A stretch of DNA of 64,000 nt, taken from the NCBI RefSeq assembly GCF_040807025.1, contig NC_090954.1, forward strand, positions 13,285,501 to 13,349,500. Direction: 5' to 3'. The notes under the pieces are model-generated. The model did no database searches. It saw only the letters and a program-made list of their open reading frames with translations, and was not told the DNA's origin. Both the position numbers and the translations under genes were made by a program. This stretch comes from Struthio camelus (lineage: Eukaryota; Chordata; Aves; Struthioniformes; Struthionidae). Position 1 is the first letter of the stretch. Each line of letters starts with the position of its first letter. Shown here one piece after another: positions 20,311 to 61,000 of this stretch.

Positions 20311-20568
20311 CGGTGCGGAGAGCCCCCGGCCGGCCCCGCGGGGGCGGGCAGGCTGCAGCCGGGGGCGCTGCCCGGCGGCGGCTCGGGGGTGCAGAGCACC
20401 CTCTCCCGGCACCGCCTGCGAGCAGCCGCGGGGACTTTTTTTTTTTTCTTTCCCCTCCCTGCCTGCCAGCCCCGGCCGGGGCGGCTCGTCCCTGGCGCGC
20501 AGCGGAAGCGGCGGCGGGGGGATGCGGAGCCCCGCGGCCCGCCGCTGAGCGCCGCGCGCCCGCGGGCC
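20310..20568 (+). promoter_or_regulatory. CCDC69 CpG-island promoter and 5' UTR
   Basis: CpG-dense sequence lies directly between the minisatellite and the CCDC69 ATG, with an 11-base T run at about 20,436-20,446 and several GC boxes. No TATA box is visible. The ATG has a favourable context (GGGCCATGG). Confidence 0.6.
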
Positions 20569-26500: not shown

Positions 26501-29500
26501 GTGGCTCCCCCTCCCACCCCATGCTTTCTTGGCTCTTTTGCATCTTTAAAAGCAGTAAAATTGACCCAACAAGACAGCAGTTAGTACCAGTAGCCAGGAG
26601 GCCACTGGGATGATGACTCAAACTTCAACCTGGCTGTGGCACGGGGAAGCAGACGGTTGCACGCAGTCATCCTGGGTAGATGGGTTATCCTCAAGGCAGG
26701 AGGCCTAACGAGGTGCTGGGCTACGTCCTCTTTGAGCCTGCCAACGCCGTCCCAATTAGCACTAATTTGGGCTTGCAATGGGTGGGGAGAGGGGTGATAT
26801 TTCTCCAGTAGGGACAGGACAGAGAGGGCTTGAACCTGGGCCACCAAGCTGCCGGCAGGTCGGCTGCCGGGTTCGCGGGATCTGGCCGTGTTTCAGCAGC
26901 GTTTGATTGCAGCCCATGCCACCCCATGGCCTGGAGACGGGAAGGAGAAAGCCATATGGCTGGAGGAGCAGAGGACGGAGATTGCAAAAATCCTTCAAGG
27001 ACACGAGGAGGAAAAGGAGAGGCTGAGACAGGTCCACCAGGCAGAGACCCAGAGACTTGCCCAAGACGTTAAAATCCAGGTAGGAACAAATCGCAGGGCC
27101 GAGGCTCTCGGGAACAGCAGGCAAGCAGGGTGTCAGTCGTCCGGTCGGGACTTTCCAGGCAGCTCTCACGGACCTGGCACAAACCAAGCGTGGCATAAGT
27201 GTACCCTGCCTTATCCCGCTTAGCTGCGCTGGCCTGCCAGCGGCGGCTGAGGCTGGGACGCGGCGAGGCGGCTGTGCCTGTTCCTGGTGCCCGGGTGCGA
27301 TTTCCCCTGCGTGTTGGGGCGGGCAGGGCACAGATGCGTGCCGTGCCTCAGCTGTGGCTCCGCGTGCCGTGGGATGCACCGCCGCGGACCATGCTGGCTC
27401 TGGTCTCCGTTTGTCAGGCCCTGGCTGCTGTGCCGAGAGCATGAGAAAGCCCCAAACGCTGCCGGGCTGCACCGTGTGTGAGAGCACTCGTCCATCCGTT
27501 GTATCCCCACGTCAGCCTCTGGCTCGCATAAGCAGAGAAATGAAACGTGTTGCTAAAAATAGCAACCCAGCCTGTCCCCCGGGGGAGAGGAGAGATGGAG
27601 CATCCCTTGCACTGGATCAGACACTTAGGGTTTATCCTGTCTGCGGCTTCCAGGTGGAAAAGGGGAAAGACTTGGAGCTGAAGGAGCAACTCTCTGAGCT
27701 GTTCAATGCCTTGAAGAGAGAGCACGAAGGGACCCTGCAAGGTGCGTGCGGTCTCTTCAGGGGACTGCTTTCCGCCTCCCCCAGCCTGCGTGTTGGTGTC
27801 TCTGCCCGTTCTCCACCCCGGCCGCCCTGCGGGTGCCCTCAGTGTGTTGGGGCTTGGCATCACTCCGCGGGGACTGCAGGCAGCGGGATGCGGTGCCTGC
27901 GTTGCTCTGTGGTGTCACGGGTGCGGGCCAGGCTGGCTCCTCTGGTGTCCTTGCGCCCATGACACTCTGTTCATGTGTCCCCGCAGAGCTCCGGAGAGCA
28001 CACGACCAGGAGAAGTTGCTGCTGACAGAGTCCCACCAAAGGTCCCAGGAGGCCTTACAGGTACCAACAGGGAAATCCCCTGGGGGGATGCTGGTGGAGG
28101 GCTTGAGGGACTGTCTCCTGGCTCTGCCACAGTACCCACCCCCATCTATGTAGCTGTTTCAGTCTCTGGGGTGCCCCAGGGACCTGGCCTCCAGCTCTGG
28201 GGGTTATTGGGGCATCGTCTTCCTGTAACTAAGCAGCAACCTGCTTGAGAGGAAATCCAAGCCCAGACACCTCCTTTCCCACTTTTTCCCCTCCTTGGCT
28301 GCCCTAGGAGACAATAGATGCCTTGAATTCCCAGCTGAAGTCCTTCCAGGAGAAGATGAAGCGGGTGGAGGAGTCGCTCTTGAGCAGAGACTACAAGAAA
28401 CACATCGAGGTGCAGGGAAACACGGGACTGGGCACCCCTTCGGGTTTGGTGTTAGCAGGGTCTCTCACCTCCATCAGTTTGGCCCGAAGTGAGGGGTGCT
28501 GCTCTGAAGGACCCCAGCACCTGGGTGGAGGAGCTGGGGCCAGGGGGGCTAAAACCCCATGTCTGGGAGTCACATGGGCTGTTCAGGTCCCTTGCACACG
28601 AGTGGCTGCAGTGAGTGGCGAAAGGTGGTAGGTTGCGGGTACAAAGGGATGCTGGGAGGAGAATGGAGCTGGCTGTGAGCACTGGCCCACAGCAGTCATC
28701 TCGCCACCGTGCAGGGGATGACCGGAGGCAGAGCCGTGCATGACTGGCCTCGAGTACCCCGGCCAGCCGCAGGCTGCTGCATCTCTCCTCTGCCCCGCAG
28801 GAGCACGGGAGTCCCAGCCCGTTCTGGGAGCAGGAACTGGAGAGCCTGCACTTCGTCATTGAGATGAAAAATGAGCACATCCATGGCTTGGACAAGAAGC
28901 TGCTGAACCTGGAGACTGTGGTGCGTTCAAGGGGCGGGGAGGGTGGTCACAGATGGGCTTTCCTGCCTTTCCAGCTCTTCTTCCCACTTGAATCCTCTGA
29001 AGAAATTGCAGCCAGAGCGGAGGTGGAAGGAGTTTGGTTCCTCCCTCCAGCCGCTGGCTCCTTGGAGCAGGAGCGTGGTGGGGCTACGGGCTCAGGGCAC
29101 AGCCCCAGCGCCCCCAGCGAGCTGGTGTGCATCGCTACGGGGAGCTGGGGGCGCATGGAGCCGGTGACAGGCGCCCCAGGACTCCCCCTGACCCTCGCGC
29201 TCTCCTGGCCTCACCAGGTGGAGCAGAACTTGCTGCTGGAGGAGAAGGTGAAAACCCTGCAGCAGGAGAACGAGGACCTGCACGTTCGCACCCAGAACCA
29301 CTTGATCATGACGAGGTAATTCCCCAGCTCTGGCTGGTCCCTCAGGCCTCAGCACGCTGGCTGGGGGTGGCAGAAGGATGCCGGCGCAGGTGGCATCTCC
29401 CGTGGGAGAAGGGGCCGCGGTGGGGGGGGGGGACACACAGGTGCTCTGGGGGCTGGTAGGAGCAGCTCCATCTGGGGCGCTTTGCAGGGCGCGGGGCGTC

Positions 29501-29709
29501 CCTTCGTGCTCCCTTCGCAGCATGTGCCGTTTGCCTGCAGGCAGCTGTCCGAGGAGCTGCTGGCTGCCCGCGGGGCCCTGGAGAAGGAGTCCCAGCTGCG
29601 GGAGCAGGCACGCCGCGAGAAGGAGGAGCTGCTGTACCGCGTGCTGAACGGGGGCGATGACTCCTCCTTCCCCATCCCTTCTGCCGAGGTGCCCCTCGTC
29701 GCCACGTAG
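20569..29709 (+). CDS. CCDC69: Coiled-coil domain-containing protein 69, nine exons, intact
   Basis: Exons: 20569-20637, 26416-26485, 26913-27079, 27654-27741, 27987-28060, 28308-28409, 28801-28920, 29218-29315 and 29541-29709 (stop TAG). All introns are GT-AG and all phases join, giving 318 residues against 296 in human. The family is described as a cytoskeletal coiled-coil protein that influences central-spindle assembly. Exon 1 encodes MGCRGSSLRCC, a probable N-myristoylation signal with adjacent cysteines that could be palmitoylated. From about residue 60 to 300 the protein is almost continuous heptad coiled coil. Best-conserved blocks are KILQGHEEEKERL, EKMKRVEESLLSRDYKKHI, FWEQELESLHFVIEMKNE, LQQENEDLHVR and EKEELLYRVL. 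Exon 2 and the start of exon 3 are poorly conserved, so those junctions are the least certain. Intron 1 is 5.8 kb and CpG-rich. Confidence 0.95.
20690..20905. repeat. TGGGGT-rich tandem repeat in CCDC69 intron 1
   Basis: Short irregular units of about 20-25 bp built on GCGTGGGGTCGGG and GGTTTGTGTGGGGTCGG recur immediately after exon 1. The strand asymmetry (G-rich on the coding strand just downstream of a CpG promoter) is typical of sequence that forms R-loops or G-quadruplexes, which is inference. Confidence 0.7.
25280..25880. promoter_or_regulatory. Internal CpG island in CCDC69 intron 1
   Basis: A second CpG-dense block, with a (CT)n run at 25,619-25,633, lies about 0.5 kb upstream of CCDC69 exon 2. 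It could be an alternative promoter or simply GC-rich avian intron sequence. A short open frame starting MESVRRRRR lies in it, but nothing supports it as a protein. Confidence 0.3.
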
Positions 29710-31420: not shown

Positions 31421-34400
31421 CTAGGCACCAGGCAGGAGGACAGGGACATGGGTGGACACGGTGCCCTGCAGGGTCTGGGCCCAGCCAATGTAAAGCCCAT
31501 GGGCACTGTGATGGGCCTTGTCCAGGTAGAGGGTGCTCTCGGCCTCCTGGCACACCTGCCACCCAGGTGCTCCCATACCTGGTGTGGGTACCCCAGCTGC
31601 AGGAAGGTGAAGGGGAGGGTTGAGAGTATGCAAGGGCATATGGGCACCCCAGTGGGTAACACTGTCACCTCCACAGCACAGGTCGGGCACAAGCAAGCCC
31701 CAGAGAAGGCCTCACTGGTGCATTTTGCGGAGCCCAGGGTCTGCCCCCTTCCGCCTTTCCCATCACATGCATGTGTCTCAGTGGGCTCCCCTCCTAGCGC
31801 GGGGCAGACCCCAGCACTGTCGAGTTCTGCCCTGCCAAGCTACCAGGGCCAATGCTGCAGTCATTTCCGTCCTTTGTGCTGATGCTTATCGGGAAAGTGC
31901 CTCCATCAGCTGCAAAAAGGCAGCCAAGGAAGCAAAGCTCAGCAAGGGCAGGGCTCGCTCTCCTCCCAGTGCCCTCTGCTAGGGCTGGGTGAGCACAGCC
32001 AGGAGCTGGGTTGCTCTTCTGCCCCAGGTTCTCCCCAGCCAGCCCTCTGCAGTTGGGCCTTACTAACCCCCTGCCCCGATTAAAGCAGAGCACGGAGAGG
32101 CTGACCCAGCCACTCTTACCTGCTGCCTGGGGTTTACCCGTGTGAACATGATGCTTGCCTCGGCTCTCTGAGGGTGGTGCAAGTCACATTGAAGCTCTCC
32201 ACCAGCCACAGAGCAGTGGCTGAGGCTCTCACCATAGGTTTAGGGGTAGAGGAGGGCTCTGCAAGGCCAGAGAGAGGCGGAAAGGAAGGGGGCAACACGT
32301 ATGAAATAGTATAATTTCAGCATATTCAACGTCAAGAGATAGCAGCCAAGGTGAGCATGGTGGCCTCACCACCTGCCTAGGTGGCACAGGCTGGCCTAGC
32401 CCCTGCCACTGGACAGCCCTGCTCCATGAGAGGCTCTCTGCCAGCAAAGCCAGACAAGGTGTTGCCAGAGGAGTCCAAGAGGCAGCAATGGGCATTTCCA
32501 GGTGTTTGGCCCTCCCCATCTGTCCCACAATCAGTGCTGTGTGAGTCAGGTTAGACACACTCTTTCTCAAAGCACAAGCCCATGCCATGGCTGACTGCAT
32601 GAGGAGCGCTATGTCTTACCCAGGAGCTAGATGCAGCTTATCTCCCACCTCACGTCCCCATGGCTGTTGAGCAAAACCCAGAAAGTCTTGTTAATAAGGG
32701 ACAACCTAGGCCAGACATACAGCTGGCAGGGGCAGATGCCTGAAGCCCTCCAGCTGGACCCCTGAGCAGCGACCTCCCACTTAGCCAGACCACTCACGTA
32801 GATGAGCATGTACTTTGTGGAGATCTGCCTCACTCCGTCCAGCCTGGCTATGCAGAAGAGTGAGCTCGCATATGAGGGCCGCATATGAGTGGTGGATCAT
32901 GAAGCACTTTATCAGGAGGAAACTTGCAGTGCAACATCACCCAGACCAGCAGGCTGGTCACCTGGCATGGCAGCAGCATGGGGCGGTCAGCATGCAGCTG
33001 GAGCACCTCGTAGTAATCCTCCATGGGAATAAAGAGCTCCTGGGGGTCTAGAGAGAGTTCCCCAAGACTGGAAGCCTTCCTCAGGGTGGTGAGTCCTTCC
33101 AGTACCCCTTGCTCACCAACCTGCTGCCCCCAGGTAGCCCCAAAGCCCTCAGTGAGGGCATGAGTTCCCAGCCAAGCTCCCCGTGCTCCTCCCAGTCCCA
33201 GTGCTGCCTGCCTTGGTCCTGCCCCGCCATGCCCACCTCCAAAAGAGCGTGCATGCTCTCAGTGCGCCGCAGAGCTATATAAGGGCACAGGGTCTCTCCT
33301 TGACACCTCCCAGGTTGGAGGAGCTCTGCAAGGAGCCAGTAAAACCTCCTACAACCCACCAAGACAGCAAAGCACTAGTTCCCCCACTCTCCAGCGGCAA
33401 GGTACCCAGAGCCAGCAGCTCCGCAGCTTGTCAGGCTAACGAGAGGGCAGAGCAGCTCCCACACAGCTGGTTGGGCTTCTCGGGCCATGTGCCCCACCTC
33501 CCAGATGGAGGTGAACACCAGCTGAGCTGGCAGGGAGCCCAAGGCAGGTGTCCAACCTGTGAAGAAGATGAAAGTTTTGCCCATCCTGTCTTCTCGATCT
33601 CAGCTCCAGGTGTCGAGGCACTGGAAGGACCAGCATGTGTACTGGCCTGTGTCCATGGACCGGCTTGGCCAGGGTGCCCGAAGCAAGGGGCCTTGTTGCA
33701 GCTGGGCAGGCAGCAATTCACCCAGGGTGGGAAACACCTGGTAACTGTGGGACAGTTCTCATTCACAGGCCAGGGATGGAGTTATTCCCCAAAATTTGGA
33801 TATTTGTGAGCCCCCTTTAATGCAGGCAAAGCCAGAGGGGTGATGGATGGAGTATACAGCTCTGCTCGAATGAGGGGCCATGCAGGGGGCCTGTTATATC
33901 AAATTGAGCTCAAAGTCACCCCAGGATGCAATCTCAGGGCTCTGGGGACAGTGGGGGTTAGACAGGGGACCTCCACCTCTGGGCTGGGTGGGGCCACCCC
34001 AGGAAGCTGGGTACGCCAGGCCAGTCCCTGCCAGCCCTGCTCACCTCAGTCACGGCTGCTCCTCGTCCTCCAGGTGGGCGGGGTAGCTCCAACACATAGG
34101 CCTCTCACAGCACCGCAGCTCCAGCACGTCACCCACCTGCAGTGCCAAGGCCTCAGCCACCTCCTGAAAGCACCCTGGCCCCGCTATGCGGAGCAGCATG
34201 GGATGTCCTGCCACCTTCACCAAGGGCTGCGCCTTCAGCTGGCACCAGGACATCACCTGCACGATCCAGCAGCCTGCTGCCTGCAGAGGCTTCAGTTCAC
34301 CACCTTTGGGCTCCTTCATGGCCTTCTTTCCTGTGGATTTGGGGGGCTTTCCCCTCTTGTGACGCTCAGCTGGGGATGGAGAGGAGAAGAGTTACCCCAG

Positions 34401-35503
34401 CTCAAATAGTTGCACTGCTCTGAGGGTGACCGAGGAGACAACAGCTCCTGCTGAGTCTGCAAAATTTGTGCTCGCTCGTGAAACAGAAGGGTGAGATGAT
34501 ACATGGATTTGGGGGGGACTGAGAAGGAGGCAGCCGTGGCCCCTGCAGAAGCACCCAGCCACTTGTCCCACCTCCAGCCCCACAGCCGCACCAAGGAGCT
34601 AAGGCCGAGGCAGCCTCCTGCGCTGCACCGCAGCCATGCGTGCGCTGGGGATGCACATTGCAAGTTGCACACCATGGGTGGCATGCCGTGGGCTGCACGC
34701 CACAGGCTGCGCGCCCCAGGCTCGTGGGCTAGAGCAAGAGCCTAGAAGGGTTGAGGCTGCTCCTGGCTCTCCTGCGGAGGAGCTACTCATCCCTGGCCAA
34801 GGGCCAAACACACACACCAAGCACTGTAGCACAAAATCAGAGGTCACAGGGTGAGGATCTAGTGCTGTTGTTGTCCCTGTAAATTCCTGTGCAGTCGTGG
34901 TTAAAGGGGGCAGCAGGCAGAATCCCTGGGCAAAGGGAGACAAAAGCAGCAGGGTGTGTCACCTGGCTCTGAGCGCTGACGCAGGAGAGCACGGGGTCCC
35001 ACTTTCCGTGCTGCATCTCTGGGATGCACTTGCACAGCAAGTGGGTTCAGTTTCCTTGTCCCCATGCCATGCAGCTGCTGGGAGTTGGAGAGCAGGAGAA
35101 AAGCCTCTGATTTGGCCAAGCGAGCAGCTGGGTCAGTGCAGGGAAGGACACTGTCCTTTCCTGACCCAGCTCCCTCCATCCCAACTCGCATTGCCAGCCC
35201 CCTCTGCTCTTCCTTGCCATACAAGTGCCAACCAAGGAGTCCAATGGTAGAACATGGCCAAAGGCATGGAGCAACCACCTGCACAGCAGCAGTTCCCATC
35301 ACAGCAGGGTTAAGCAGACAGCATGATGTCCTGCCACCCTGCGAAGGCATGACTTGCGCAGTACCAGAGAATTGCGCCCAGCCCCAGGAAAGGGGAGAGC
35401 AGGGACAGGCTAGGGATCGAGGAGGAACGAGGGTGCGGGAAGGAGAACTTACCCATGATAAGGAGGAGAAGGCAACAGCTCAGCACAGCCCGGGCCTCAG
35501 CAT
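31421..35503 (-). pseudogene. PDGFRL-like Ig-domain gene remnant, six exons, disabled
   Basis: Minus-strand exon remnants: 35503-35453 (signal), 34369-34045, 33744-33557, 33047-32798, 32258-32120 and 31596-31421 (stop TAG). All have GT-AG borders. Order and content follow PDGFRL, a secreted two-Ig-domain relative of the PDGF receptors. Exon 1 has a hydrophobic LSCCLLLLIM core. Exon 2 has DVLELRC and CWSYPAHL, exon 3 has DTGQYTCW and TFIFFT, exon 4 has QELFIPMEDYYEV, DRPMLLPCQVT and ISTKYMLIY, exon 5 has FNVTC, and exon 6 has GLYIGWAQTLQG. Lesions are a frame break between ATG and signal core, TGA at 34,050-34,052, TGA at 33,600-33,602, frame changes in exons 4 and 5, and a lost Ig cysteine in exon 6 (YIG for YIC). 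It is an unprocessed pseudogene of a PDGFRL paralogue; PDGFRL itself would be expected elsewhere in the genome. Confidence 0.85.
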
Positions 35504-36728
35504 TCGTGGCAGAACAGGCTGGTTAACTCCACTTACCCCTCTAAAGCAAAGTTGGGCTGCAGAGATGGTGCAGCAAGGACAGCTAAGGGCCCAGTGCCTG
35601 CAGCTTCACAGCACAAGAGAAGGGTCCGCTCAGCTCTGCCATGAGCAGCTAGCTAAGGGGGCTGGAGGGAAGAGGAGAGCCCAGTGCCAAGGATGAAGCA
35701 GCAGATGCGGGAAGAGAGGTTTCAAAGGAGAAAAAAAATTATATATATAGCATATAAAAATAAGTGCTCGACTCTTCCTCTCCAAATAAAATTCCCTTCT
35801 CACAGGCTCACCATGAGGGTTCAGGTTCCTCCAAGGGAGGTGAATGGGGCCATTCAGGTCTAAGTGCAAAAGAAAACAGCCCCCACCAGTTTACTTCAGG
35901 CTGTGGCCTGCTCTCCAGGCAAGGAAGTGGCCGACAGCATCCTTCAGCCCAAGGAACCTCTCCACCCCCAGCTGAGGGTCTCCCTCTGCAGCAAGGTGGA
36001 GGTCCGTGGCATGGCAAGCATGGCCCCATGCCACGGGTGAAGGGAGCTGGGCCCGTGGGCACCAGCCCACCTCCCTACTGCCCGTCACAGGGCCCGTGGG
36101 GTTACATGGCAGGGGAACGTGAAGGGAACCACCACCACTCCCATGGCACCTCCATCAGCCCATCCTTCCCATCCACCCAAAAACCCACTAGGTCTGTCTG
36201 TTCTGCAGGGACACGGGGCACTTGTGACCTCTGTGTTACCCCTCCAGCACACTCCAGGATTTTTCCCACAAGAAGGATAATACTATCCAGGTTTTCTTCT
36301 TTTCCTTCTCTTCTCCTCTGGGACAGCTGTGACACTGCTGATGTAACACAAGGGGAGCTGGGCAGGGGGCACCTATGGGGGCCCTTCAGGCTGGCATCTC
36401 TCAGTCCTGTGGCAGATCCCATAGCCAAAGTAAATTAGGAAACCTGAGAACAAACAGAACAGCGTGCAGAGATTTTTCTTCCCTCTCCTCTGTACTATGT
36501 AACACCACAGCTCACCTCCTTCCTGCTCCTTTGGTGAGGATAATCAGCACCACATGTTGGAGCATGCGGTGGTCCCACCACCCTCTTACAATAAGACTGA
36601 GCATCTCTTCCTCCACCCATCCACTACCACTCCATAGCAAGCACTGATATCGTGGGCTTTCAAAATACTCACACTTTGCCCAAAGAGGCTCCCAGCAGCT
36701 CTGGGACCTCCAGCGCCGCGGGGCTCAC

Positions 36729-39700
36729 CAAGAACCATGCAGAGCAGGTACCACAGCCAGGCAGCCGTGCTAAGCTGGGCCATCAGGTGGCTGTTGATGG
36801 TGATGCTGAGCAGCAGCAGAACTGGTAGGCAAGGTACCTGGAGCGAGCAGGCACAAAGGTCAAGCCTTCAACTAGAAACACCAGCTGACCGGCAGGGTTC
36901 TTACACCCTCCTCTCAGCTCTCCACTACTGGGGCTACTTGGCAGCCAGTGAGAGAAGGGCCAGCCCAGCCACGGGGCTGTGAGGTGCAGAGATCTGAGCT
37001 GTGATTCCCAGTCCCAGCTGTGGAGACTGATGCTCATGAGAAGGATGGTTCAGCTGACATGTCCTGCACCTGGGAGGAAGGTGCTGTAGGATTTCAGAGG
37101 GAGGGTAGTAAACCACTAATGAAGCCTACCCAGAGCACTGAGACCAGATACTTCTTTACCAAAGAGCTGCTCCAGTTTGTGCATCAGGCAATGGGCTCTG
37201 TGCAGGGCTCAGGAGACGTTCCTTTGGCCTGTGACACAGCAGAGGAAGAACTAAACAGTCCTAACTGTCCCTTTGGAAAACCTAGTAAGCTGCCAGACTC
37301 ATCCAATATCACTGTTTAATGTCGACACAAAAAAGGTCTGGCTGCCCTAGCAGGAGGAAGCACCTCCCTGATGCCATGCAGTATAACCCTTTTCCCACAG
37401 GAATATGGTACTTGTTTCTGTCCCCCAGGTCATTCTCCTCTGGAAAGCCCCCCCCCCCCCCCCCCCCCCGCATGTGAGGCTTCTTGCTCACCATGAAGTA
37501 TGCCTTCTCCTGGCTCTGCAGCTGCCTCCGGATGAGCAGGGTGGCCCCCAGAATCCCCAGAAGAGGGAGAGCCAGGTCAGCAATGCACCAGGCACCCATG
37601 GCCCACAGGCGCAGCAGCCCAGTGGTGCTCACAACACGGACCAGCACACCTGGAGATGGACCACAGGTAGTGTGTGAGGGGATCGGCCGCTCCTGGACTG
37701 AGCCTCCTCCATTCCTCCGCACAGTCAAGGCCACTGTTGCACGTGGGAGTGACAGCAGGAAAAGCAGGGGCCAGGACTGGAGCTAAATGGTTTGTCACAG
37801 AGAATTTAACTCTTTCTACCCAGTGTTAGATGTGGACCGAGTGAGAGGTGTAGAGGCCCATACCAGTGCGATCAGTTGTGTGGCTGTCAGGAGGGGGCAG
37901 GAGGGAGCTAGGCAGGCCCTGCCTGCTGTTCATTTTCAGGAAGCATGAGCCTGCCAAGCCATGCCACCACAAGACCTGACCACACCAGAGACGTTCCCCA
38001 TGGGTTCCCCGTGGGTCGGCTGCCAGCTCCGCTTGAGGTACATTGCTCACAGGCATACCTCTAACTGCCAGAGCATAGACTGCCACGGGAAAGAACAAGG
38101 AGTTGGATATATGGGTGGGTGGACGAGACAGTCTCACCAGAGCTGCACAGCTGGAACCTTTCCATCAGAAGTGTCCTGAGTGCCAGGTTCAGGCCGATAT
38201 CTGAGGAAAAGGTATTTGACATCAAGCTGTGTGAAAGACCCCACTCTGCTTAGTGCCTGGGAGCTGCATCCCTCCTGTCTTCCCAACAGCCCTTAAAGCA
38301 TTTTCTGCAAAGGGATCCTGGGAGACAACTCACCCCTCTGGCGCTGAACATGCACCAAGACCAGTGCCTTGCTCCTGATGTGGCCAGCACCAGCGCTCAC
38401 TAACCCCCATCCCCTGGCCTCCTCAGGCCTGCCTAGCAACTTACCTGAGGAGAAGAGCACAGACAGCCACTGGTGAGTAGGCCAGCAGTGTAGCAATGGA
38501 CATAATGTCAACCAGGGCTTTCAGGTTGAAGAGGAGGGCCAGGATAGCTGTGGACACAAGAAACCCCTTTGGTCTCCTGGCACAGCTGGTGGCCCTCTGC
38601 TGCTTTCTGCCCATCACCCTTGCTCTGTCCCTACACCCCCAGGTCCCTCTGCAGCACCAGCAGCAACGGGACTCCAACAACTTTCAGCTGGCAATGCTTC
38701 AGCCATTCACGCAAAGCATCCTGCCACCTCCTCCCCAAAGAGCTGAGACTACTGAGTGTCCAGTCCTACCAATGAGGCTAAAGGGTCTCCCACTCACAGC
38801 CCTGTCTCTGCATGGGCACATTTCTACCCTGCCATGTCCTAGGTCTCTGCCTCTCTCTTCTTTAAGGAAGTTTCCAGCATCTTAACTCAGGATTCTCCAG
38901 TCCTGCTTGGTTTCCCTTGCAGGTTTTACATTCAGAAGTATTTTATACTCAGATATATTGCTCAAACAGCTATTGGCAAAAGCATTGGCAAGGGATACAA
39001 GAATCTCTGCTGATTTAGCAGCAAGGCAGGCTATCCCTTAGGGGGTCAGCATTGTCCTGCTGAAAGAGGACATTCGCCGAGCTCTACTCAAAGCTAATGG
39101 CTAGTACAATAGCTCATCTACCTGCCACTCCTCCAGACACCAATGTTGCCACCACTGGGGACTGACTGCCACTAACTTTGGCCAGAGGTCTGAAAAGGAG
39201 CCATAGCATATAGGATCAGTGGCACGGGGAACACGGAGCCCAGAAGGCTGCAAAGGAGGGAGGAGACAGGTGAGAAAAAGGGTAGGAGTCTAGAAGATGC
39301 ATCCTGCCTTTTGCTCTTCCTCAGGTGCCAAGGGAGCTCCTTTTCATCTCTGCCAAGTGTGACCTTCCCAAGGCCATGTAGACATGGCCTTCAGCTCCCT
39401 CCCCATGGGAGGGGAAACAGCACCTGGGAAGCTATGTCTGCGTGACACCAGGAGCCCAGCCTGCTCCTGGCAGCCCCTCAGCTGTGTTCATGGTGCCAAC
39501 AACTGCCTGACCACTTCCCAAGACTTCAGGCTAAAAGCAGCATGCCAAGTGGGTCCAGTTGCTATCCTTGTTCAGGAAGGGGCCAGGATGAAAGCAACAG
39601 AAATTTGCAGGGACAGAATCAAGGAATTTTGGTGAGGAATTTGCAGATGAGGAAGGAGATGACAATCCCCATGGGAATGGAGCTCTGGGGGTTGGTTCTT

Positions 39701-40680
39701 CACTTCTTCCCCTGGGGAGGACAAGTTTGGTTGCAGAAACATGCTTATTTAAAGTCCATGCCATGCTAAGAGCCCAGCTCCGGTGTGAGAACGTATCCTA
39801 CACCCCCTGGCTAGAGCAGACAGACTTTCTAGCAAGGACCGTTAGACCTCCTGGCCTTGAGGGCTCATGGGAACAGGGACAGTCTTTGCTTTAGGATTAG
39901 CCCAGTCCTGCCCATGCAGGCTCACACCGTTCCTCCTCCAAGTATGGAGGCTGAGGAGACAGCAATGGCAGCACAGCCAGCAGCATGCTGATTCCCAGCT
40001 TGGCTTCATACCAGCTTCTGTGGCTACGGGGAGAATCACTACCACGTTTTCCCAGGCTGCAGAGGAGGCGCACACTGACATCTCTTCCCTCCTCGCTTAC
40101 CCATCGTAGCGATGCAGTCAAATCCGACAAAAGCATAGAAACAGGCAACAGCTCCTGCCAAGGTCCCAGTGAAACTGTAGGGCATGAAGCCTCCCACCCT
40201 AAAGCCACTGGTCCTATTGGTAGCCGTAGACTAGTTCCTGAAAGGAGGAGGAGGAGGAGGAGGAAGAGGACATTGGTCAGTACAAAAGACGGGTCAGTGC
40301 AAAGGGGTCTTGAAATGGGGCCAGGCTGACCAGCCCCATCTAACCTGTTTGCCCTTCTGGGATCAGGACTTGGACTCTTTGGTGCCTTGTCAACAAGGCA
40401 TGGAGAGATAAGGAAGAAACAGGGTTTTTCTGGTATAAAGCATTAGGGGAATCACCCAGTCATCCCCTGTCCTCCTCTGAAAGCACAAGAAAGGTGGTTC
40501 CCCCCTTATACTCAGCCCCATGGGAGGCTGCCCATTATCAGGTCATCCTTGCTGAGCTTCCAGTTCCTCAGGTCACCTTTAATGAAGCCGCTCAGTGATG
40601 AAGAGCGGAACAAGCATGTTGAGAGCAATGAAGGCTTTGCTGAACTGCAGTTGACTCTTCCACTCCAAAGGAAAGCAGCC
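36729..40680 (-). pseudogene. Cationic amino-acid transporter (SLC7A1/2/3-type) remnant, disabled
   Basis: Minus-strand exon remnants with GT-AG borders are about 40680-40512, 40237-40101, 39711-39620, 39247-39122, 38547-38445, 38200-38138, ~37950-37864, 37649-37492 and 36837-36729. Motifs, in CAT order, are [107 protein letters not shown] and VPCLPVLLLLS. CATs are plasma-membrane arginine/lysine transporters. Lesions are two frame changes in the first exon, TAG at 40,231-40,233, a frame change after EEVKN with loss of the rest of that exon, and an apparent 11-bp deletion after LYAMA. The exons at 38.5, 37.6 and 36.8 kb are still open and join in phase locally. The N-terminal third and a clear terminal exon were not found. 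Nearest relative is probably SLC7A2 or SLC7A3. Confidence 0.85.
37448..37469. repeat. Poly(C) tract, 22 bases
   Basis: An uninterrupted C22 run lies just downstream of a CAT-like exon. It is a candidate G-quadruplex on the minus strand and a likely site of length error in sequencing. Confidence 0.95.
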
Positions 40681-40689
40681 CTGGGGAGC

Positions 40690-52000: not shown

Positions 52001-55000
52001 AACCCAGGGGATTTCGTAGGCTCCTGGGAAAGTCTCTCCCCGCAGTCTCTCTCTTCCCAGCTAGGAACCAAAAGTGTTCAAGAAATCTTCTTCCAAAACT
52101 CAGCTCTTGCTGACGTGGATGAGGAGGATTGTGTTTAACTTTTAAACGCATGGTACAATGGGCAAATAAAGAACAATGCCACTGAGATAAGAGAGGGAAG
52201 GTCATGTACTACAATGACCTGGAATGCAAACAATTTACACTGGATAACAAATGAGAGAGGAAGTAATTGAAGAGAGGAACAAATGTTTGTTTCAAGCTAA
52301 GTTTTGCCTTCAGAGAGCCTGAAACGGGAGCTGATCTCACCCCGCTCCTGCTCGCCATCTTTTGGCTCCACCTTTTGGCTTCTCTTTTACCACTTTTTTC
52401 TGTCCTGTTGTCCAAGCTGGACCCAGCTGGGAGAGGGGGATGGAGCTATGGGAATATCTTTTTCTCCTTTCATTTTCTTATCTCCTTTCTCCTAGGTCTA
52501 CAGGGGGTCAGTGAAGGATTTCCCAGGCTTTGATGCCAACCAGGACGCAGAGGCCTTGTACAATGCCATGAAGGGATTTGGTATGGATGCTCCTCCCAAT
52601 CATCACCCCAGGGTTACCCTGATGTCCCCTAGTCCTTTGGGCTGACCCCTTGCGTGGCTGAGCATCCTGCGTTGCCACCTTTTCAGCTGTCTATTTCAGC
52701 AGCACGCCAGGACTTTTCCTGGTTCCCCTTTGCTCCCCACCAGCACCAGAGCCCAGCAGGCATTGCCCCTTGGCTCTGCCCCTCGTGTTTCTCCTCCCAC
52801 CCCAGAGTCGGACACATCTTTGGGCACAGCAGAATCTTTAAGACGAGCCCAGATGCGGGGGGCAAGACCAAATGTGACTGTCAGGCTCTCTCCTGCAGGC
52901 AGTGACAAGGAGGCCATCCTGGACCTCATCACGTCCAGAAGCAATAAGCAGCGAGTGGAGATCTGCCAAGCCTACAAGTCTCTCTACGGGAAGGTAACAG
53001 CAGAAACACCCGCCAGTCCGCACCGCCACCACCACTGCAGGCTGGCAGCAGCTCTCCCGACAAGCCCACGCTGGGGTCCTGTAGCTCCCCAGCCCCGAGC
53101 CACACAACCTGTGACGGAGGAAAGGCTTCGCAGCCCCGGTCCTCCCAGAGCCCTGCAGAGCCGAGATGCCCTCCCAGGCCAGCAACAGGATCTGCTACTC
53201 CCTGCAGGTGGGAGCTGGCTTGTCTCAGTCCTTTTCTCCCTCTCTCCACCAGGATCTTATCGCAGACCTCAAGTATGAGCTGACGGGGAAGTTTGAGCGG
53301 CTGATTGTGAGCCTGATGCGGCCCCCCGCCTACAGTGACGCCAAGGAGATCAAAGATGCCATCGCGGTAAGGGGTGGGGGCAGCGCCGGCGGAGCCCTCT
53401 CCATGGCCGCCCTGGCTTGCCCTGCGGCTCACAGGGCCTCATCTCTTCCCGCAGGGCATCGGCACTGACGAGAAGTGTTTGATTGAGATCCTCGCCTCCC
53501 GCACCAACCAGGAGATCCATGACCTGGTGGCTGCCTACAAAGATGGTGAGAGCTGGGGATAGGCAGGGTGTACACTGTGTCCCCTCAGGCCAGGGCAAGG
53601 GGCAGAGTTAAGGGGATCTGGCTCCATGCCCTGACCTCTCCTCCTCCCACCAGCCTATGAGAGGGACCTGGAGGCTGACATCGTTGGAGATACATCGGGC
53701 CACTTCAAGAAGATGCTTGTTGTTCTGCTTCAGGTAGGTCCAGCCGGGCTCCCCTGTCCTGCACAGCTTGGTGGTGGCCAAGGGGGCCAAGCAGGGCTGA
53801 GCCAGTGTCTGTCCCACAGGGCACCAGGGAGGAGGACGACGTGGTGAGCGAGGACCTGGTGGAGCAGGATGCCAGGGTGAGGCCTGGTGGGTCACTGGGA
53901 TGGGGTGGCATCCAGGCAGGAGTGGGATGGAGGCACTGGTCGTGCTGGGACAGTCCAGCCCCGAGGCTGTGAGACGTGGTGGATGCCGAGGGCACCTGTG
54001 CTCTTGCAGAGCCCAGTGCGAACAGCACCATGACTTGGTCTCTCTCTGCCATCTTCCCCATCCCACAAGGACCTCCTGGAAGCTGGCGAGATGAAATGGG
54101 GCACTGACGAGGCCCAGTTCATCTACATCCTGGGCCGGCGAAGCAAGCAACACCTCCGCTTGGGTGAGTATCTACTATGAGTTCAGGGCTGGGGTGAGGG
54201 TAGCTGCAGGGTTTGGGCAGCTCCTCCTGTCGAGCCCACCTGGCTGGACACCTGGGTGCCCGGGGCTTCGTCATCTGCCAGCCAAGTGCCATGTTTTTGT
54301 CTGTAGTGGTGAGGACATCCTTGCTGTCAGCTGAGCCCCAGGTGGGTGCCCTGCAAGTCCCCAAGTGGCTCACTTGGCTGGACAGGCACCCAAAGCGGGA
54401 GAGCAGGCACCCTGCTTCACCCTGCAGCCGTGGCATGCCCGGGGCCACCTTTGCCATGTGCACGTGCAGTGCTGGGACACCTAAGTCCCCAGGACGCCCT
54501 GCTGCAGAGGGCCTCGAGTCCCCCAAGGGGGCTGCCCGGCTCTTGCCAGCATGCGTGGGCCATTTCGGGAGGGCTCAGCCAGGGCCTTGTCCCACTTGTG
54601 CTCTGCAGTCTTTGACGAGTACCTGAAGATTTCGGGGAAGCCGATTGAGAGGAGCATCCGGGGAGAGCTGTCTGGTGACTTTGAAAAGTTGATGCTGGCA
54701 GTGGGTAAGTCAGCCCCAGTGGTCAGGGGTGCTACGAAAGCGCATTATTTGCCTTGCTGGGGATGTGAGGTCTTAAAGAAAGAGTCGGTGGGGCCGATTC
54801 CGCTGTTTCAACTGTGCCTGGTTTTAGGTAGCTCAAATCTGGGCGTGCACTCTTGGGAGGGATGTGTGTGAAGAGCAGCCTGAACTCTCAGAGTAGAGTA
54901 TGAAGATGTAGAGATGCCTATCCTGGGGACTGGTTCAGACAGCATTCATGATAAATAGTCGTTCACACCTAAAACTGGTCGTTCTGTGCCGTTCCCACCA

Positions 55001-58000
55001 CGTGCCATGAGCGTTTAAAGGTAGTCGCCCCATGAGCCTCCCAGCGAACCCGCAGATATTCTTGCCATTCCCTGCTGTTGCTGGGCTGTCAGTGCTCCCA
55101 CTGCGTGAGTTGAGGGCCAGGAACCAGCAAACGCTCATATGTCCGTATTGTCATTGGTGTAAAGGCTGCAAATGGACAAGAGATGAAAAGCTCCTCCTGC
55201 AGGGAAGGTCCCCCTTGGACCAGCCCACGGCAGTGCCCGATGCCACGCTGATTTATAGCTAATGGTAGCAACCGATAAATGCAGAGTCTGAGGCACAGCG
55301 AAGCACACGGCTGCGTAGGGAACACCTCAGGATGGTGGGTAGATACAGTCGTTCAGGGGAGGCACCGAGGGCTGCTCCAGGAAAGCCAGTGGAAGCAGAC
55401 AGCTAGGAGGAGGATGGGTGGTGATGGTAAACGTGGTGACCGAGAGGCTCGGGCCAGGAGAAGGGAACGGGAGCTCGGAGGCGCGGAGCGCTGCCTGATG
55501 TCCCCGGATCAGGGGCCAGGGCACGAGCAGTCTGACAGCTTCTCAGCCTCTCACCTTGCCTCCGTTTCCTTCCCCCCCACCCCCGCAGTGAAGTGCATCA
55601 GAAGCACAGCAGAGTATTTTGCTGAAAGGCTGCACAAGGCCATGAAGGTGAGTGGATTGCCCCCTTTCAGAGCCGCGAGGCTCCTTCGCAGCTCTGGGGG
55701 AGCAGAGCAGAGGAAAGCTCTGCCCACGAAGTGCAAGCCCTGTTCCTTAGAGCCCACGAGGAGCCCTGCAGGTCTCTCTTCCCTGCCCCACACCGCGGCG
55801 TGCCAGCAGTGGGGTGGATGCTATAGGGCAGGCGGATAGCCTGTCTGTGAAGACAGGACCTATATGACTCTGGGGTCCTCCGCTCGCCTGCACTGCAGGG
55901 TAGACACAAAGTCATCTCCAGCAGAGGAAACCTCCAAAGCACTTCTTCATTCACCTGGGACTGGGTGGAAATCTGATAAAGGGCCCTAGATCTGATGGGC
56001 CGAGCGACCTCCTCGGGTTAGTCCCCTGGGGCCAGGCCCGTGGCAGGGCCAAGTGGGCTGCCCAGCCCTCACCATTTGCTATTCCAAGGCTTGATCCTGG
56101 GACTCATCCACTGCAGGGGCTGGGCACAAGGGACAACACGCTGATCCGCATCATGGTCTCTCGCAGCGAGATTGACATGCTGGACATCCGGGAGGTGTTC
56201 AGGACCAAGTACGAGAAATCTCTCTACAACATGATAAAGGTAAACGTTAGGGCGTTCCTCACCATCATCCACGAAACTCCTGCTAGCGCTGTTCTCCTCC
56301 TGACACTAGCGCACCCAGGAGGGCTGAACACCCTGCCCAGCCCTGCTGTGCGTGAGTCTCCATCCTTGACTGTCTTTCTAGGAAGACACATCTGGCGAGT
56401 ACAAGAAGGCCCTGCTGAAGCTGTGTGGAGGAGATGATGAGTAAGAGTGCCTGTCGCTGCCTTTCTTTCCTTTGGACTGTCCCTCTGGGTCCCCTTGGGG
56501 CTGCCCTGGGTGCTGGGCGCAAATCTGGCCTCCTGCGGAGCCTGGTGGAGCACCACGCTGGCAGGTTTCGCTCCAGACCGGGAGCCGGGCAGGACCGCCA
56601 GCGCTTGCAATGGGAGCAGCTCAGTGTGGAGGGCTGTGTGGCCCCTCTGCGTGGCAAACCACAGCACCGTATCCCTCCCTGGCACATGGGGGCAGCCCCG
56701 CAGAGGTGGGGGGGCCGGGGCAGGTGGTGAGAGGGGCTGCGCACCTTCCTGTCCCTGAGGCTGAGAGGTCGCGAAAGGGAAGCTTGGAGGGAGGATGCTC
56801 CAGAGGGGCAGCAGGGGCAGTTTAATGCCTGCTTCCCCCTTGTTCCCAGGGCTCCCTCCACAGGCTGCCTGCTTCCCCTAGCACAGATGACGGGTGTGCG
56901 ATGCCCCTTGCACCATTGCCAGCCCCTCTGCCACTGGCACCGCGAGCGGTGGAGCAGGATGGGTTGCAAGGCTGCTCTGTGGCGGGGCCAGAGCCAGCGG
57001 CTCGGCCCCAGGCTGGGGCAGCAGGCAGCGGCGCCCGCGGGCTGGCTGGCAGCGCGGGCTGGCTGGCAGCACTGGCTGCCCCGTGCTGTGTGCGCCCGCC
57101 CCGTCGCTCACTGTCCTTGTGTCCTTGCCCTCCCATTGCAGTGCTGCAGGTGAGTTCTTCCCCGAAGCGGCGCAGGTGGCCTACCGGATGTGGGAGCTTA
57201 GTGCAGTGGCTAAAGTAGAGGTCAGCACCCCCTCCTCTCCTGCCTCCGTCCCTGGCTCCGCTCCCCGCCAGCTTGGAAATCACTGCTTCTCCTCTCCGCG
57301 TGCCCGGGGCCTGCCAAGGGGCCTCCCCTCTGCCTCTTGCTCTCTGGCTTTTCTTGAGACCTTTAGCTCTTCTCTGGTGCTGGGCATGAGGTTGGTGTGA
57401 CGTAACCGCAGCAGTGCCGTGGTCTCCACTAACCAGACCTTCCCGTTTCTAAAGCCTGATCTTGCTGAGACAGCAGGCACTGCATGTCTGTGCAATGCAT
57501 CACGAACAGCCTAGGCTTCGGCACGCAGCAGAGACATCACCCTTCCACGGCTGAGCTCCTCGTGGGCAGCCCGCACCGAAGCCAGGGCCAGAGGCATGGC
57601 TGGTGGGAGCCCTGCCAGCCCTTGTGCCCCAGGAGCGTGCACTGAGCATGCAGCAGGGAGGCATATGGAAGGGTGTTTGTCTGGCTGCAGGCGATAGGAA
57701 GAGATGGGTAGAAAAGCCCCCTGGGTGCAGTGTGCAAGGCAAAGCTCCCTGTTAACCTTGCTAGAAGTTGTGCGACGACCTAGGAGGGCAGAATTACACC
57801 TGACTGGAGGAAGGACCAGGAATCCTTTCAGTGACTCCCTTTTTGGCTCTAAAACAATGCAATCAAACCCAGCAGAAGCATGTCAGCAGTTGGGGAGAAG
57901 GGTATTGCACCGAGCACCACACTGAGATGCTAGTGTCCGCTGCCATCTCCTCTCCAGCCTCCGCTGGCCTGGCTATGGAAGGGTGGCAGTGAGGGCACAT

Positions 58001-61000
58001 CCGCATTGAGCCCTGGCGCATGCACTAACTCACCACCTGCTTTGGCCTCGGCTTGCCAGTTGGCACCTTCCCTCCTTGCCTCCCTCGCCTGCCTCGGGAG
58101 CAAACCTAAAACCCCTCTGTGCCTCCACAGCTGCAAGGAACCGTGCACCCCGTGGGAAACTTCAACGACGACGGTGACGCGCAGGTGCTCAGGAAGGCGA
58201 TGAAGGGGCTGGGTAAGTGGGTGTCGCGTGCGCAGCGCTGGCGAGCCCGCGTCCCCTGGCCCCCTGGGGGAGACGCTCTGTGGTGGACCAGGGAGCTGAA
58301 AACCCCTCCTGGCCCAAGCAGGGCTGCAAAAAGGCACATGGCTCTGTGTGCCCTCCTGGCCAGCCTGGCACAGAGCCCTGGGGGCTGTGGCTTGCGGCTC
58401 TCTGTGGCATCGCTGCTGTCGTTGCAGGCACAGACGAAGGGGCCGTCATTGACGTCCTCACCCAGAGGAGCAACGCCCAGAGGCAGCAGATCATAAAGGC
58501 GTACAAGGCTCACTACGGCAGGGTAATGCTGCCCCTCTCTCACCACACTTGCTTCCTTCTGCCGGTGTCCTCTCGCTCTGATACCTGCCCTTTGCTGAAA
58601 AAATCCTGCCTGAGGAAGGAGAGGGGAGTCCAGGAGCCTTGCTTTGTCCCGTAATGTCTCTTCCCTGAGGAAGACTGAGTTTTCAAAGTGGCCTCCCATT
58701 TTGGGTGCACTGCCAACCCAAGGCGAGTGCATCCATCCCCCTTTGCTTATAAGGTCCTGGGTCCTGCATGGAGGACTCCAGAGCTAGGCTGTCCCCAGAG
58801 CCACCCCCCAAAACGTAATTTGCAACAGTCCTGAGGGGCTGCCCAGGTGTGTCTCACCTCCAAGCAAGAGGGTCTCTTTGCTGCGGTCAGGGACATGTGG
58901 GTTGCATCCGGCATGAGGAATAGTACTCCTGTTCTATAGGAGGAAACACGAGGGTTTCGGGGATTCCAGCTCTAAGGAGCTGGTCAAATGCACTTCTCCG
59001 TTCTCCCCTCCACTCTTCCTCTGTATGACTACCTGCTGGCAGAGGGGATTGGGAATAGCTCTTATTTCTCCTTGCATTGCTCATGGGTGGGTATCCCATG
59101 CTGTTTTCCCCTGTTTCCTCCCTGTCGTTGCCTCAGCCGACCCATCCCTGCCAAAGGAGCAGGGGACAGGCTGAGCCTAATGCCTGAACGCTTTTCCAGG
59201 ACCTGATGGCAGATCTGAAATCAGAGCTGTCGGGCAGTTTGGCAAAGCTGATCCTTGGACTCATGCTGACCCCGGCTCAGTACGACGCCAAGCAGCTGAG
59301 GAAGGCTGTGGAGGTAATTGCAGCACCTGTAGGACCAGCTTCAACACATGGGGATGACACAGTATTTCGGGTTTGTGTTCATCCTGCCTGTGGGCCAGGG
59401 CAGGTGCTGGAAGATGGCATACTTGTCCCCTCTCTTATGGACCGTGCCAAGCCGGGGCTGTGAGTTGGCCCGGGCTTCACACGCCACCAGCCTCTTCATG
59501 TCCCACCCGAAAGGAAAGCAGAGCAGAAAGCACCAAGACAAAGGCCTGATTTGTGCTTGAGACCTGCTAGGGGCCCAGTTTGGCTTGTTTGCAGCCAGCG
59601 TGCTCTCACCAGCTTTTATACAAAACTTTTCAGCAGGTCGTGAGCTGCTTTGCGCAGTATCCCCATTTTGCAGCAGGAGGCAGTGCCCTGCCAACCAGCC
59701 CAGGCAGTGGGGGCAGAGCCAGCGTGGATGCAAACCAGCTACGCGCAGCAGCGCTATGCACTGAGCTAGGCTAGCAGGACCTGCACTGGTGTCAAGGCTG
59801 AACACCCTTCATCTCCCTGCCAGAGACCCTCCCTGACAGCAGCACTCTTGGAAACTTTGGTGCTGGCTCCCCCCAGCCTATGGGTCGCTAGAAAGTTTCT
59901 GTGGCAGCCACAGACCTTCCCCTTCAAAAATCCCTAGAGCTTCTGCTCAAGCTGGAGAGCAAAGGGACTCATCCCTGAGCTGGTTTGCCATCTTGAGGCT
60001 CAACTGTGGCCCAGGTTGCAGGACACAGCCTGGGGTCTTGCAGATCTGCAGAGCCAAGCAGGCTGCAGATGCTAATTCTTGCAACCGTGACAACTGTGTC
60101 CTGCTATGCAAAGAGGGGAAACAGAGCCTGCAACATGCAGGTAATAGACACCACCTGGCTCAGAGCAAATCTGGTCTTCATGGCCACCCCTCCCCCCTTT
60201 TTGTGTAACCTGGGGGGGGGGGGGTCACTTGCACACCCTAGAAGTGACCAAATAAATCCCAAGGCGTTCCTGCATGGCAGCCACACTGCAGCAGTTGCAA
60301 ATGGAGATGGGAGGGATCGTGTGACCTAGAGATGTTCAGAGCAATGCAGCACTGGGCTCAGAGCAGCTCCTCCTTGCTTTGCACTAGTGGGGTGATGCAG
60401 GAGAACCAGGGCGTCCCTGACCTGTGCTGAGCCCCACAGCACCCTCCACACCACGCCACTCTCTTCCAGGGGGCCGGCACAGACGAGAGCATCCTCATCG
60501 AAATCATGACCACGAGGAACAACCAGGAGATCAAGGCTATCAATGAGGCGTATCAGCAAGGTACGGCAGCAGGAGGCAGTGCGGGGAGTGTGCAGGGCAC
60601 ACTGAGGGTCCTGGGGACTGGCAAAGAGAAGAGAGTATGTTTAATGCTCTACTGCTGTACGAGACACTTTGCCGGGACTCAGGGTACCGTTGCTATCTCT
60701 GGACTGGATCCGTGACTTGATGCTGCGAAGGTGCCTTAGTCCTTCCAGGCAAAACCCAGGCCCAAACCTTCACTAAAGAGCAGTGGAAATGTGGGACGAG
60801 GCTGGCCGGAGTCCACACATCTCTGTCCTATCATTTTTCACATCTCTAGACCGCACGCTTTTCTCTTCCTCTTCTGTCCATGACCCCTTCTCCCTAGGGA
60901 ACGAGAGGAGCTGCAAGATCAAAGTTAAATTCTCAGCTTCGTCTCCCCAAGAGCCCCTCTGTTTTAAATAGACATCTCTGTGGCTGGTAACCCTCAGAAG

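Follow-up and report, generated by a model that had tools for sequence, protein, structure and literature searches.

Probable remains of a missing CAT ohnologue and a second PDGFRL between CCDC69 and ANXA6

The locus between CCDC69 and ANXA6 on contig C13 raises the question of whether two broken genes lying there are a second copy of the SLC7A2-PDGFRL pair, left by the early vertebrate genome duplications. In the window, that is, the whole 64,000-nucleotide stretch of DNA that was analysed, the original prediction had seen two multi-exon remnants on the minus strand, one CAT-like and one PDGFRL-like, and both were indeed found at this place, with shuffles and genome-wide searches in agreement. 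SLC7A2-type exons lie at 36400-40678 (8 of 10 tested were recovered by frameshift-tolerant alignment and tblastx) and PDGFRL exons at 32120-34205 (4 of 5 tested), in both cases in gene order, interrupted by introns at homologous places and damaged by stops and frameshifts. The location given for the pair, 31421..40680, held, except that its limit at 31421 depends on a weak last PDGFRL-like exon. The neighbour on the CAT-like side is ANXA6, whose exons have Annexin VI as their best PDB match. The features are as follows.

26834..29706 (approximate span), plus strand: CCDC69 coiled-coil exons, with MTUS1 matches
31445..31543, minus strand: possible last PDGFRL-like exon, weak (5 of 200 shuffles as high)
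32120..32256, minus strand: PDGFRL-like exon 5, frameshift, acceptor and donor kept (alignment, splice comparison)
32795..33048, minus strand: PDGFRL-like exon 4, frameshift near 32890, acceptor kept (tblastx, alignment, shuffles, protein search)
33558..33665, minus strand: PDGFRL-like exon 3 (aligned part), in-frame TGA at 33600-33602, donor kept (tblastx, alignment)
34045..34369, minus strand: PDGFRL-like exon 2, lysine-rich start followed by an Ig-type stretch (tblastx, alignment; limits by eye)
36400..36444, minus strand: CAT-like exon 10 (GFLIYFGYGICHRTE), acceptor kept (tblastx, frameshift-tolerant alignment, splice comparison)
36727..36837, minus strand: CAT-like exon 9, open, acceptor and donor kept (tblastx, alignment, splice comparison)
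37489..37635, minus strand: CAT-like exon 8, poorly conserved, donor kept (tblastx, alignment, splice comparison)
38444..38548, minus strand: CAT-like exon 7, 35 codons open, both splice sites kept (tblastx, alignment)
39120..39249, minus strand: CAT-like exon 6, deletion and frameshift near 39200 (tblastx, alignment)
39643..39693, minus strand: CAT-like exon 5, first part only (17 of 74 residues), frameshift just ahead (alignment)
40101..40237, minus strand: CAT-like exon 4, in-frame TAG at 40231-40233, acceptor and donor kept (profile, tblastx, alignment; limits read from the sequence)
40536..40678, minus strand: CAT-like exon 3, two frameshifts, acceptor kept (alignment)
52871..61449 (span of the exons seen), plus strand: ANXA6 exons

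The CAT-like exons were located by tblastx comparison with the CAT genes of the same genome and by frameshift-tolerant alignment to ten SLC7A2 exons, with 6a and 6b counted as one, six shuffles per exon, and the SLC7A2 loop between exons 7 and 8 (in this numbering) outside the test set. Exons 3, 4, 5, 6, 7, 8, 9 and 10 follow one another in gene order from 40678 to 36400 and, with the stricter of two frameshift aligners, score 58 to 159 versus shuffle maxima of 36 to 45. The looser aligner, in which insertions were opened too cheaply, concurs for exons 3, 4, 6, 7 and 9; exon 5 lies above its shuffles with both, the looser one giving a longer, padded alignment. Support is least for exons 8 and 10, which exceed their controls only with the stricter aligner (with the looser one, 73 versus 76 for a plus-strand control and 72 versus 73 for a shuffle, respectively). 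Exon 1 scored within the shuffle range and exon 2 reached 32 versus a shuffle maximum of 31, falling into the range on a repeat search, in both cases with the search extended up to window position 53000; among the paralogues, these two missing exons show the highest conservation or lie next to the exons that do. Neither a second exon 6 nor the remainder of exon 5 was found when searched for, and with exons 1 and 2 missing, a stop and frameshifts, the remnant holds no complete 14-helix reading frame. In a genome-wide profile search, TIGR00906 matched window positions 40096-40236, at exon 4, with an E value of 2.7e-11, below the curated cut-off; taken one exon at a time, no locus attains it. The CAT-like remnant is single-copy: a DNA search of the genome returned the remnant itself and two exon-sized matches of 76%.

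Exons 2-5 of the PDGFRL-like remnant score 60-116 versus a shuffle maximum of 46 (10 shuffles each), and the far part of exon 4 scores higher than all of 200 shuffles; exon alignment did not recover the possible last exon at its place. In exon 2 an in-frame TGA (34050-34052) stands immediately ahead of the kept donor, and with its TGA codons and frameshifts the remnant contains no open reading frame with Ig domains; PF21339 matches it at E 0.011, under the cut-off. A genome-wide search with the PDGFRL protein of contig C4 gave, besides itself, three matches only, two of them in the window (32896-33057, E 4.7e-5; 34062-34205, E 0.013) and the third in one receptor-type exon of C4 (E 0.018). Together with the DNA search for the CAT part, this search revealed no intact copy elsewhere in the genome. 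Chance similarity as the source of either set of matches is excluded by the shuffles and the genome-wide searches. By eye, 17 splice dinucleotides were counted at places homologous to those of SLC7A2 and PDGFRL on C4, one comparable site, the donor of CAT exon 5, being gone. The remnant thus resembles PDGFRL in its ordered exons 2-5, its kept intron places and its position downstream of a CAT gene on the same strand, but differs from it in being only about 35-43% identical in the aligning stretches and in its lesions.

On C4, the genes SLC7A2, PDGFRL and MTUS1 have the same order and orientation as the CAT-like remnant, the PDGFRL-like remnant and CCDC69 on C13. According to the available text of PMC12311101, CCDC69 is a member of the MTUS family, and in the window its segments 28822-28923, 29215-29319 and 29536-29652 match three MTUS1 exons of C4 in the same order. 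CCDC69 pairs with MTUS1 as a further neighbour, a pairing that the original prediction had overlooked, so that the duplicated block is three genes long. On C1, SLC7A1 (plus strand) and MTUS2 (minus strand) converge as the CAT and MTUS-type genes do on C4 and C13, and the available text of PMC7584565 describes SLC7A1 as adjoining MTUS2 in species ranging from fish to mammals. The same text lists the zebrafish genes slc7a3a on Chr 21, slc7a3b on Chr 14 and zgc:175280 on Chr 5. The search for PDGFRL remnants beside SLC7A1 (C1, covering 6.2 kb out of about 14 kb) and beside the CAT gene of C11 (covering 22 kb) gave nothing convincing, and no MTUS or PDGFRL neighbour of the C11 gene was found. In the ten exon tests made on these two contigs, a single piece rose above its 6-10 shuffles, namely a frameshifted, exon-5-like one at C1:199859216-199859291, which was matched by 2 of 200 shuffles and was not counted.

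How old the CAT-like copy is can be read from its codon positions. At third positions the remnant and SLC7A2 differ at 0.61, compared with 0.56 and 0.66 between SLC7A2 and two other CATs; being as saturated as between SLC7A2 and those CATs, the third positions argue against a recent copy. Differences at positions 1 and 2 are far fewer, and the codon positions show long constraint on the CAT-like copy at the protein level. The remnant is 61% identical to SLC7A2; for comparison, SLC7A1 of the same genome and a PDB chain labelled CAT1 share 81% identity. A CAT tree was built from 226 columns, with that PDB chain and a plant CAT as the only outside sequences, and 18 topologies on three backbones were compared by the AU test. 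Placement beside SLC7A2 was best overall and on each of the three backbones (AU p 0.91, 0.15 and 0.25), with 54% bootstrap for the node, and placements inside the CAT1 clade (p 0.0017), with SLC7A4 (p 0.022) and with SLC7A14 (p 0.036) were rejected. Ten of the 18 topologies were not rejected, including one with the remnant at the base of CAT1, CAT2 and CAT3. The remnant is thereby placed among CAT1-3 and outside the CAT1 clade; in the best tree it stands nearest to SLC7A2, with several placements among CAT1-3 staying compatible. Its likeness to SLC7A2 (CAT-2), and with it to SLC7A1 and SLC7A3, extends to exon sequence, intron places and exon order, and its exon 6 has the same one-codon gap as the alternative exon 6b of SLC7A2. 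It differs from SLC7A2 in its place between CCDC69 and ANXA6, in being broken, and in having yielded one exon 6 only and neither exon 1 nor exon 2.

The wider setting is a four-contig one. CAT1-3-type loci lie on C1, C4, C11 and C13 (genome-wide profile search), CDX genes on C1, C11 and C13, and VEGFR/PDGFR-type Ig matches on C1, C4, C11 and C13, with none on the remaining contigs at E values up to 0.001. The fitting frame is the ParaHox/PDGFR-VEGFR paralogon on these four contigs. Compared with a 2R ohnologue set of the ParaHox paralogon, close shared neighbours are seen for C4, C13 and C1 and none is shown for C11, where the linkage of the CAT gene to CDX and the receptors is loose because of the distance of 18.6-18.8 Mb between them and because no MTUS or PDGFRL neighbour accompanies it. 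The original prediction had invoked a different paralogon, typified by EGR, ADRA1, DPYSL and EBF; EBF, the sole family tried, has members on C13, C27, C7 and at C4:87.16 Mb, all distant from SLC7A2 at C4:53.9 Mb, and the EBF-type frame was rejected.

Very probably, the two remnants are adjacent unitary pseudogenes, one of the missing fourth CAT ohnologue and one of a second PDGFRL, both lost late. Kept introns, saturated third positions and single-copy status sustain the earlier claim of a second, old copy of the pair. That SLC7A2 and PDGFRL were recently duplicated in this lineage, or retrocopied, draws on nothing besides the resemblance itself and is scarcely credible: retained introns rule out retrocopies, and a recent segmental copy, which had been named as what would refute the claim, is countered by third-position saturation and by the DNA search of the genome, with its two exon-sized matches at 76%. 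A segmental duplication that placed SLC7A2-PDGFRL beside CCDC69 after the genome doublings and decayed thereafter deserves more attention, since such a copy would likewise have introns, and both the closeness to SLC7A2 in the best tree and the exon 6b gap are in line with it. We nevertheless consider it unlikely. It would have had to land next to a gene of the MTUS family with order and orientation unchanged, and on the last contig left in the ParaHox paralogon, and its third positions are saturated. Moreover, exons 6a and 6b are reported for fish slc7a1a as well in the available text of PMC7584565, so that the 6b state may be ancestral.

A different doubt concerns the broken state rather than the origin, as the loci might still be expressed and yield a shortened protein or a non-coding RNA, with the lesions partly due to assembly errors or skipped exons. 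The open CAT-like exons 7 and 9 with their intact splice sites would fit this, but the searches failed to recover exons 1 and 2, exon 5 is truncated, exons 3 and 6 carry frameshifts and exon 4 a stop, and the PDGFRL-like remnant has two stops and two frameshifts, which makes continued expression very improbable.

For the pseudogene reading of lost ohnologues, we envisage that in the early vertebrate genome the ParaHox/class III-V receptor kinase region carried a triad of CAT and PDGFRL in one orientation and a converging MTUS gene. After two genome doublings, which presumably made the copies themselves, the C4 copy would have retained SLC7A2, PDGFRL and MTUS1, the C1 copy a CAT and an MTUS gene (SLC7A1 and MTUS2), and the C11 copy at least a CAT gene, probably SLC7A3. 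The C13 copy would have kept CCDC69, while its CAT and PDGFRL may have long remained protein-coding, with a carrier for cationic amino acids and a secreted Ig protein resembling PDGFRL as their presumed products, before decaying in this lineage. The lesion number and the small excess of second-position changes suggest a recent loss, some tens of millions of years ago at a very rough estimate.

No title or abstract start among the listed matches from the open-access literature describes a second PDGFRL or a CAT at CCDC69-ANXA6. According to the available part of PMC12954441, birds as a whole lack about 4% of the ohnologues surveyed, the losses falling chiefly on dot chromosomes; SLC7A, PDGFRL and CCDC69 do not occur in its main text. 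The remnants are like the unitary pseudogenes of such bird-lost ohnologues in being syntenic, intron-bearing relics of duplicate genes; as described there, the survey covers only ohnologues with human orthologues, and a gene missing in humans falls outside its scope. Surveys limited in this way can miss ohnologues lost in humans. If our reading is correct, the empty CAT place of the ParaHox/PDGFR paralogon would be filled, the vertebrate ancestor would gain a second PDGFRL, and a CAT, PDGFRL and MTUS block would have been kept in order on two of four duplicated chromosomes. The chances seem to us evenly balanced that jawed vertebrates began with a full CAT1-3-type quartet and a second PDGFRL, that both were long functional, including in the stem of this lineage, and that they are still intact at CCDC69-ANXA6 in some living vertebrates, perhaps named SLC7A2- or SLC7A3-like and PDGFRL-like. 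Should intact copies persist elsewhere, what the CAT-2 isoforms and PDGFRL do would have to be reinterpreted in the light of a lost partner.

Two decayed multi-exon genes, one CAT-like and one PDGFRL-like, lie on the minus strand between CCDC69 and ANXA6, as the original prediction had read from the sequence: exons 3 to 10 of the former and 2 to 5 of the latter align in order to SLC7A2 and PDGFRL on contig C4 of the same ostrich genome, from which the exon numbers are taken. In the window, C13:13285501-13349500, the order along the plus strand is:

7197-7340 (-), 3' exon, presumably GM2A-like, which agrees with the order GM2A, CCDC69, ANXA6
28822-28923, 29215-29319 and 29536-29652 (+), CCDC69 exons
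34199 to 32120 (-), PDGFRL-like exons 2 to 5
40678 to 36400 (-), CAT-like exons 3 to 10
ANXA6 (+)

In the comparison with ten exons of ostrich SLC7A2, counterparts of exons 1 and 2 were looked for by alignment and not found. CAT-like exon 3 carries two frameshifts, exon 4 a TAG (40231-40233) and exon 6 a deletion with frameshift, and exon 5 is cut after 17 aligned residues; exons 7 (35 codons) and 9 (37 codons) keep an open frame and the splice sites at both ends. The weakest matches are exons 8 and 10, which did not exceed the controls in a looser first aligner. A genome search with TIGR00906 (34 of 51 candidates scored) gave 39 exon-level matches, at five main CAT loci (C1, C4, C9, C11, C17) and at 40096-40236 of the window, with some weaker ones to permeases on C2 and C10. 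The remnant is single-copy in the genome, a DNA search with 36390-40690 returning itself and two exon-sized matches of 76% on C11 and C4.

The PDGFRL-like exon tests ran from exon 2 onward and found a TGA in each of exons 2 and 3 and a frameshift in each of exons 4 and 5; the last exon is doubtful. With C4 PDGFRL as query, eight matches appeared at E up to 0.1: five in PDGFRL itself, two in the window, and the eighth, a weaker one, in a receptor-type exon of C4. By homology, the two genes would once have encoded a plasma-membrane carrier of arginine, lysine and ornithine and a small secreted Ig protein; from the frames as read, neither protein could now be produced.

Side-by-side reading by eye placed 17 splice sites where the C4 genes have them (CAT acceptors of exons 3, 4, 5, 6, 7, 9 and 10 and donors of exons 4, 6, 7, 8 and 9; PDGFRL acceptors of exons 4 and 5 and donors of exons 2, 3 and 5), and the CAT-like exon 5 donor is lost; the comparison covers these 18 sites. 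Introns at these places rule out a retrocopy origin, and the remnants are thus duplicated genes with introns.

As to age, identity over 226 aligned columns is 61% between the CAT-like remnant and SLC7A2, and 55% when the remnant is compared with SLC7A1 or with the CAT locus on C11; ostrich SLC7A1 is 81% identical to a PDB chain labelled CAT1, which we take to be mammalian. In a tree of this one genome's CATs with that PDB chain and a plant CAT as outside sequences, omitting exon 6, placement beside SLC7A2 was best on each of three backbones and best overall among 18 topologies (AU p 0.91), with 54% bootstrap for that node. The test rejected a position within the CAT1 clade (p 0.0017) and a pairing with SLC7A4 (p 0.022) or SLC7A14 (p 0.036); 10 of the 18 stay unrejected, including one at the base of CAT1-3 (SLC7A1/SLC7A2/SLC7A3 type) and, on some backbones, those beside CAT1 or the C11 CAT. 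The tree accordingly places the remnant among CAT1-3 but not in CAT1, the finest placement that it supports, and a later copy of SLC7A2 is compatible with this single-genome tree taken by itself. A recent copy is ruled out by the saturated third codon positions:

Fraction of differences at codon positions 1, 2 and 3
CAT-like vs SLC7A2: 0.28, 0.22, 0.61 (249 codons)
PDGFRL-like vs PDGFRL: 0.46, 0.37, 0.68 (193 codons)
SLC7A2 vs SLC7A1: 0.23, 0.09, 0.56 (four exons, 128 codons)
SLC7A2 vs C11 CAT: 0.26, 0.12, 0.66 (four exons, 128 codons)

The contrast between codon positions shows long constraint. In those four exons the remnant differs at 22 of 129 second positions (~0.17), somewhat above the functional pairs, and this excess, with the handful of lesions, points to late decay; a rough neutral rate puts it at tens of millions of years. 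The PDGFRL-like gene evolved faster than the CAT-like one.

The collinear block comprises three genes, the third having been missed by the original prediction. The three CCDC69 exons match, in order, three exons of MTUS1 at C4:53883592-53886149 (+), and the discussion of PMC12311101 counts Ccdc69 in the MTUS family. C4 carries MTUS1 (+), PDGFRL (-) and SLC7A2 (-) in that order, and the window likewise CCDC69 (+), PDGFRL-like (-) and CAT-like (-); the C4 genes appear intact in the exons seen, short of end-to-end annotation. On C1, SLC7A1 (+) ends ~14 kb before MTUS2 (-) at 199867991-199868164, convergent as on C4 and in the window, and PMC7584565 mentions this neighbourhood from fish to mammals. 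Within the C1 gap, the place of any lost PDGFRL, 6.2 of about 14 kb were read; a frameshifted stretch resembling PDGFRL exon 5 (C1:199859216-199859291), equalled in score by 2 of 200 shuffles, was not counted.

Four contigs share a wider setting, with two more distant CATs on C17 and C9:

CDX-type, VEGFR-1-like Ig family and CAT matches (Mb), with CAT to CDX/receptor distance
C1: CDX 200.56; Ig 200.32; SLC7A1 199.83; 0.5-0.7 Mb
C4: Ig 56.68 and 56.94, besides PDGFRL 53.90; SLC7A2 53.92; 2.7-3 Mb
C11: CDX 6.90 (two); Ig 6.76; CAT 25.55; 18.6-18.8 Mb
C13 (with the window): CDX 7.35; Ig 7.17; CAT-like 13.32; 6 Mb

This set constitutes the ParaHox paralogon, including its class III and V receptor kinases; the distance on C11, whose CAT we infer to be SLC7A3, makes the link weakest there. 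PMC2020491 describes the paralogon, its main text containing, by word counts, no SLC7A, MTUS or PDGFRL. The proposal of an old second SLC7A2-PDGFRL pair, probably from the genome duplications, holds in its core and gains strength from the pairing of CCDC69 with MTUS1 and from the setting shared by four contigs. EBF, the supporting family that was tested, drops out: its members, on C13, C27 and C7 and far out on C4, form a different set. The proposed mechanism is ordinary, namely gene loss after genome doubling.

The CAT/PDGFRL-like pair is not known from human and may be present in other vertebrates. The interest of the find is that no fourth CAT1-3-type gene or second PDGFRL at CCDC69-ANXA6 is described in the titles and abstract starts of the literature matches listed. 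The bird ohnologue-loss survey PMC12954441 covers only ohnologues with human orthologues, and the pair would thus fall outside it.

CAT-like exon 6 (39120-39249) has the same one-codon gap as exon 6b of SLC7A2 and is identical to it at 28 of 43 residues, against 26 for exon 6a, 26 for SLC7A1 and 23 for the C11 CAT. Ostrich SLC7A2 has both 6a and 6b, the remnant retaining a 6b-like form, and zebrafish slc7a1a has 6a/6b according to PMC7584565, so the alternative pair may be older than the duplications.

On C11, a same-strand pair of Caudal_act (CDX-type) matches separated by 23 kb (6903882-6927540) suggests a tandem CDX4-type duplicate; the VEGFR-type Ig exon close by (6760160) perhaps belongs to a fourth, KDR-like VEGFR that is not known from placental mammals. 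The window also holds LINE reverse-transcriptase fragments (12884-14120), presumably CR1-type, with a related copy close to PDGFRL exon 2 on C4, and a tandem array (19571-20316) of eight 93-bp copies in which a 31-bp period is also readable.
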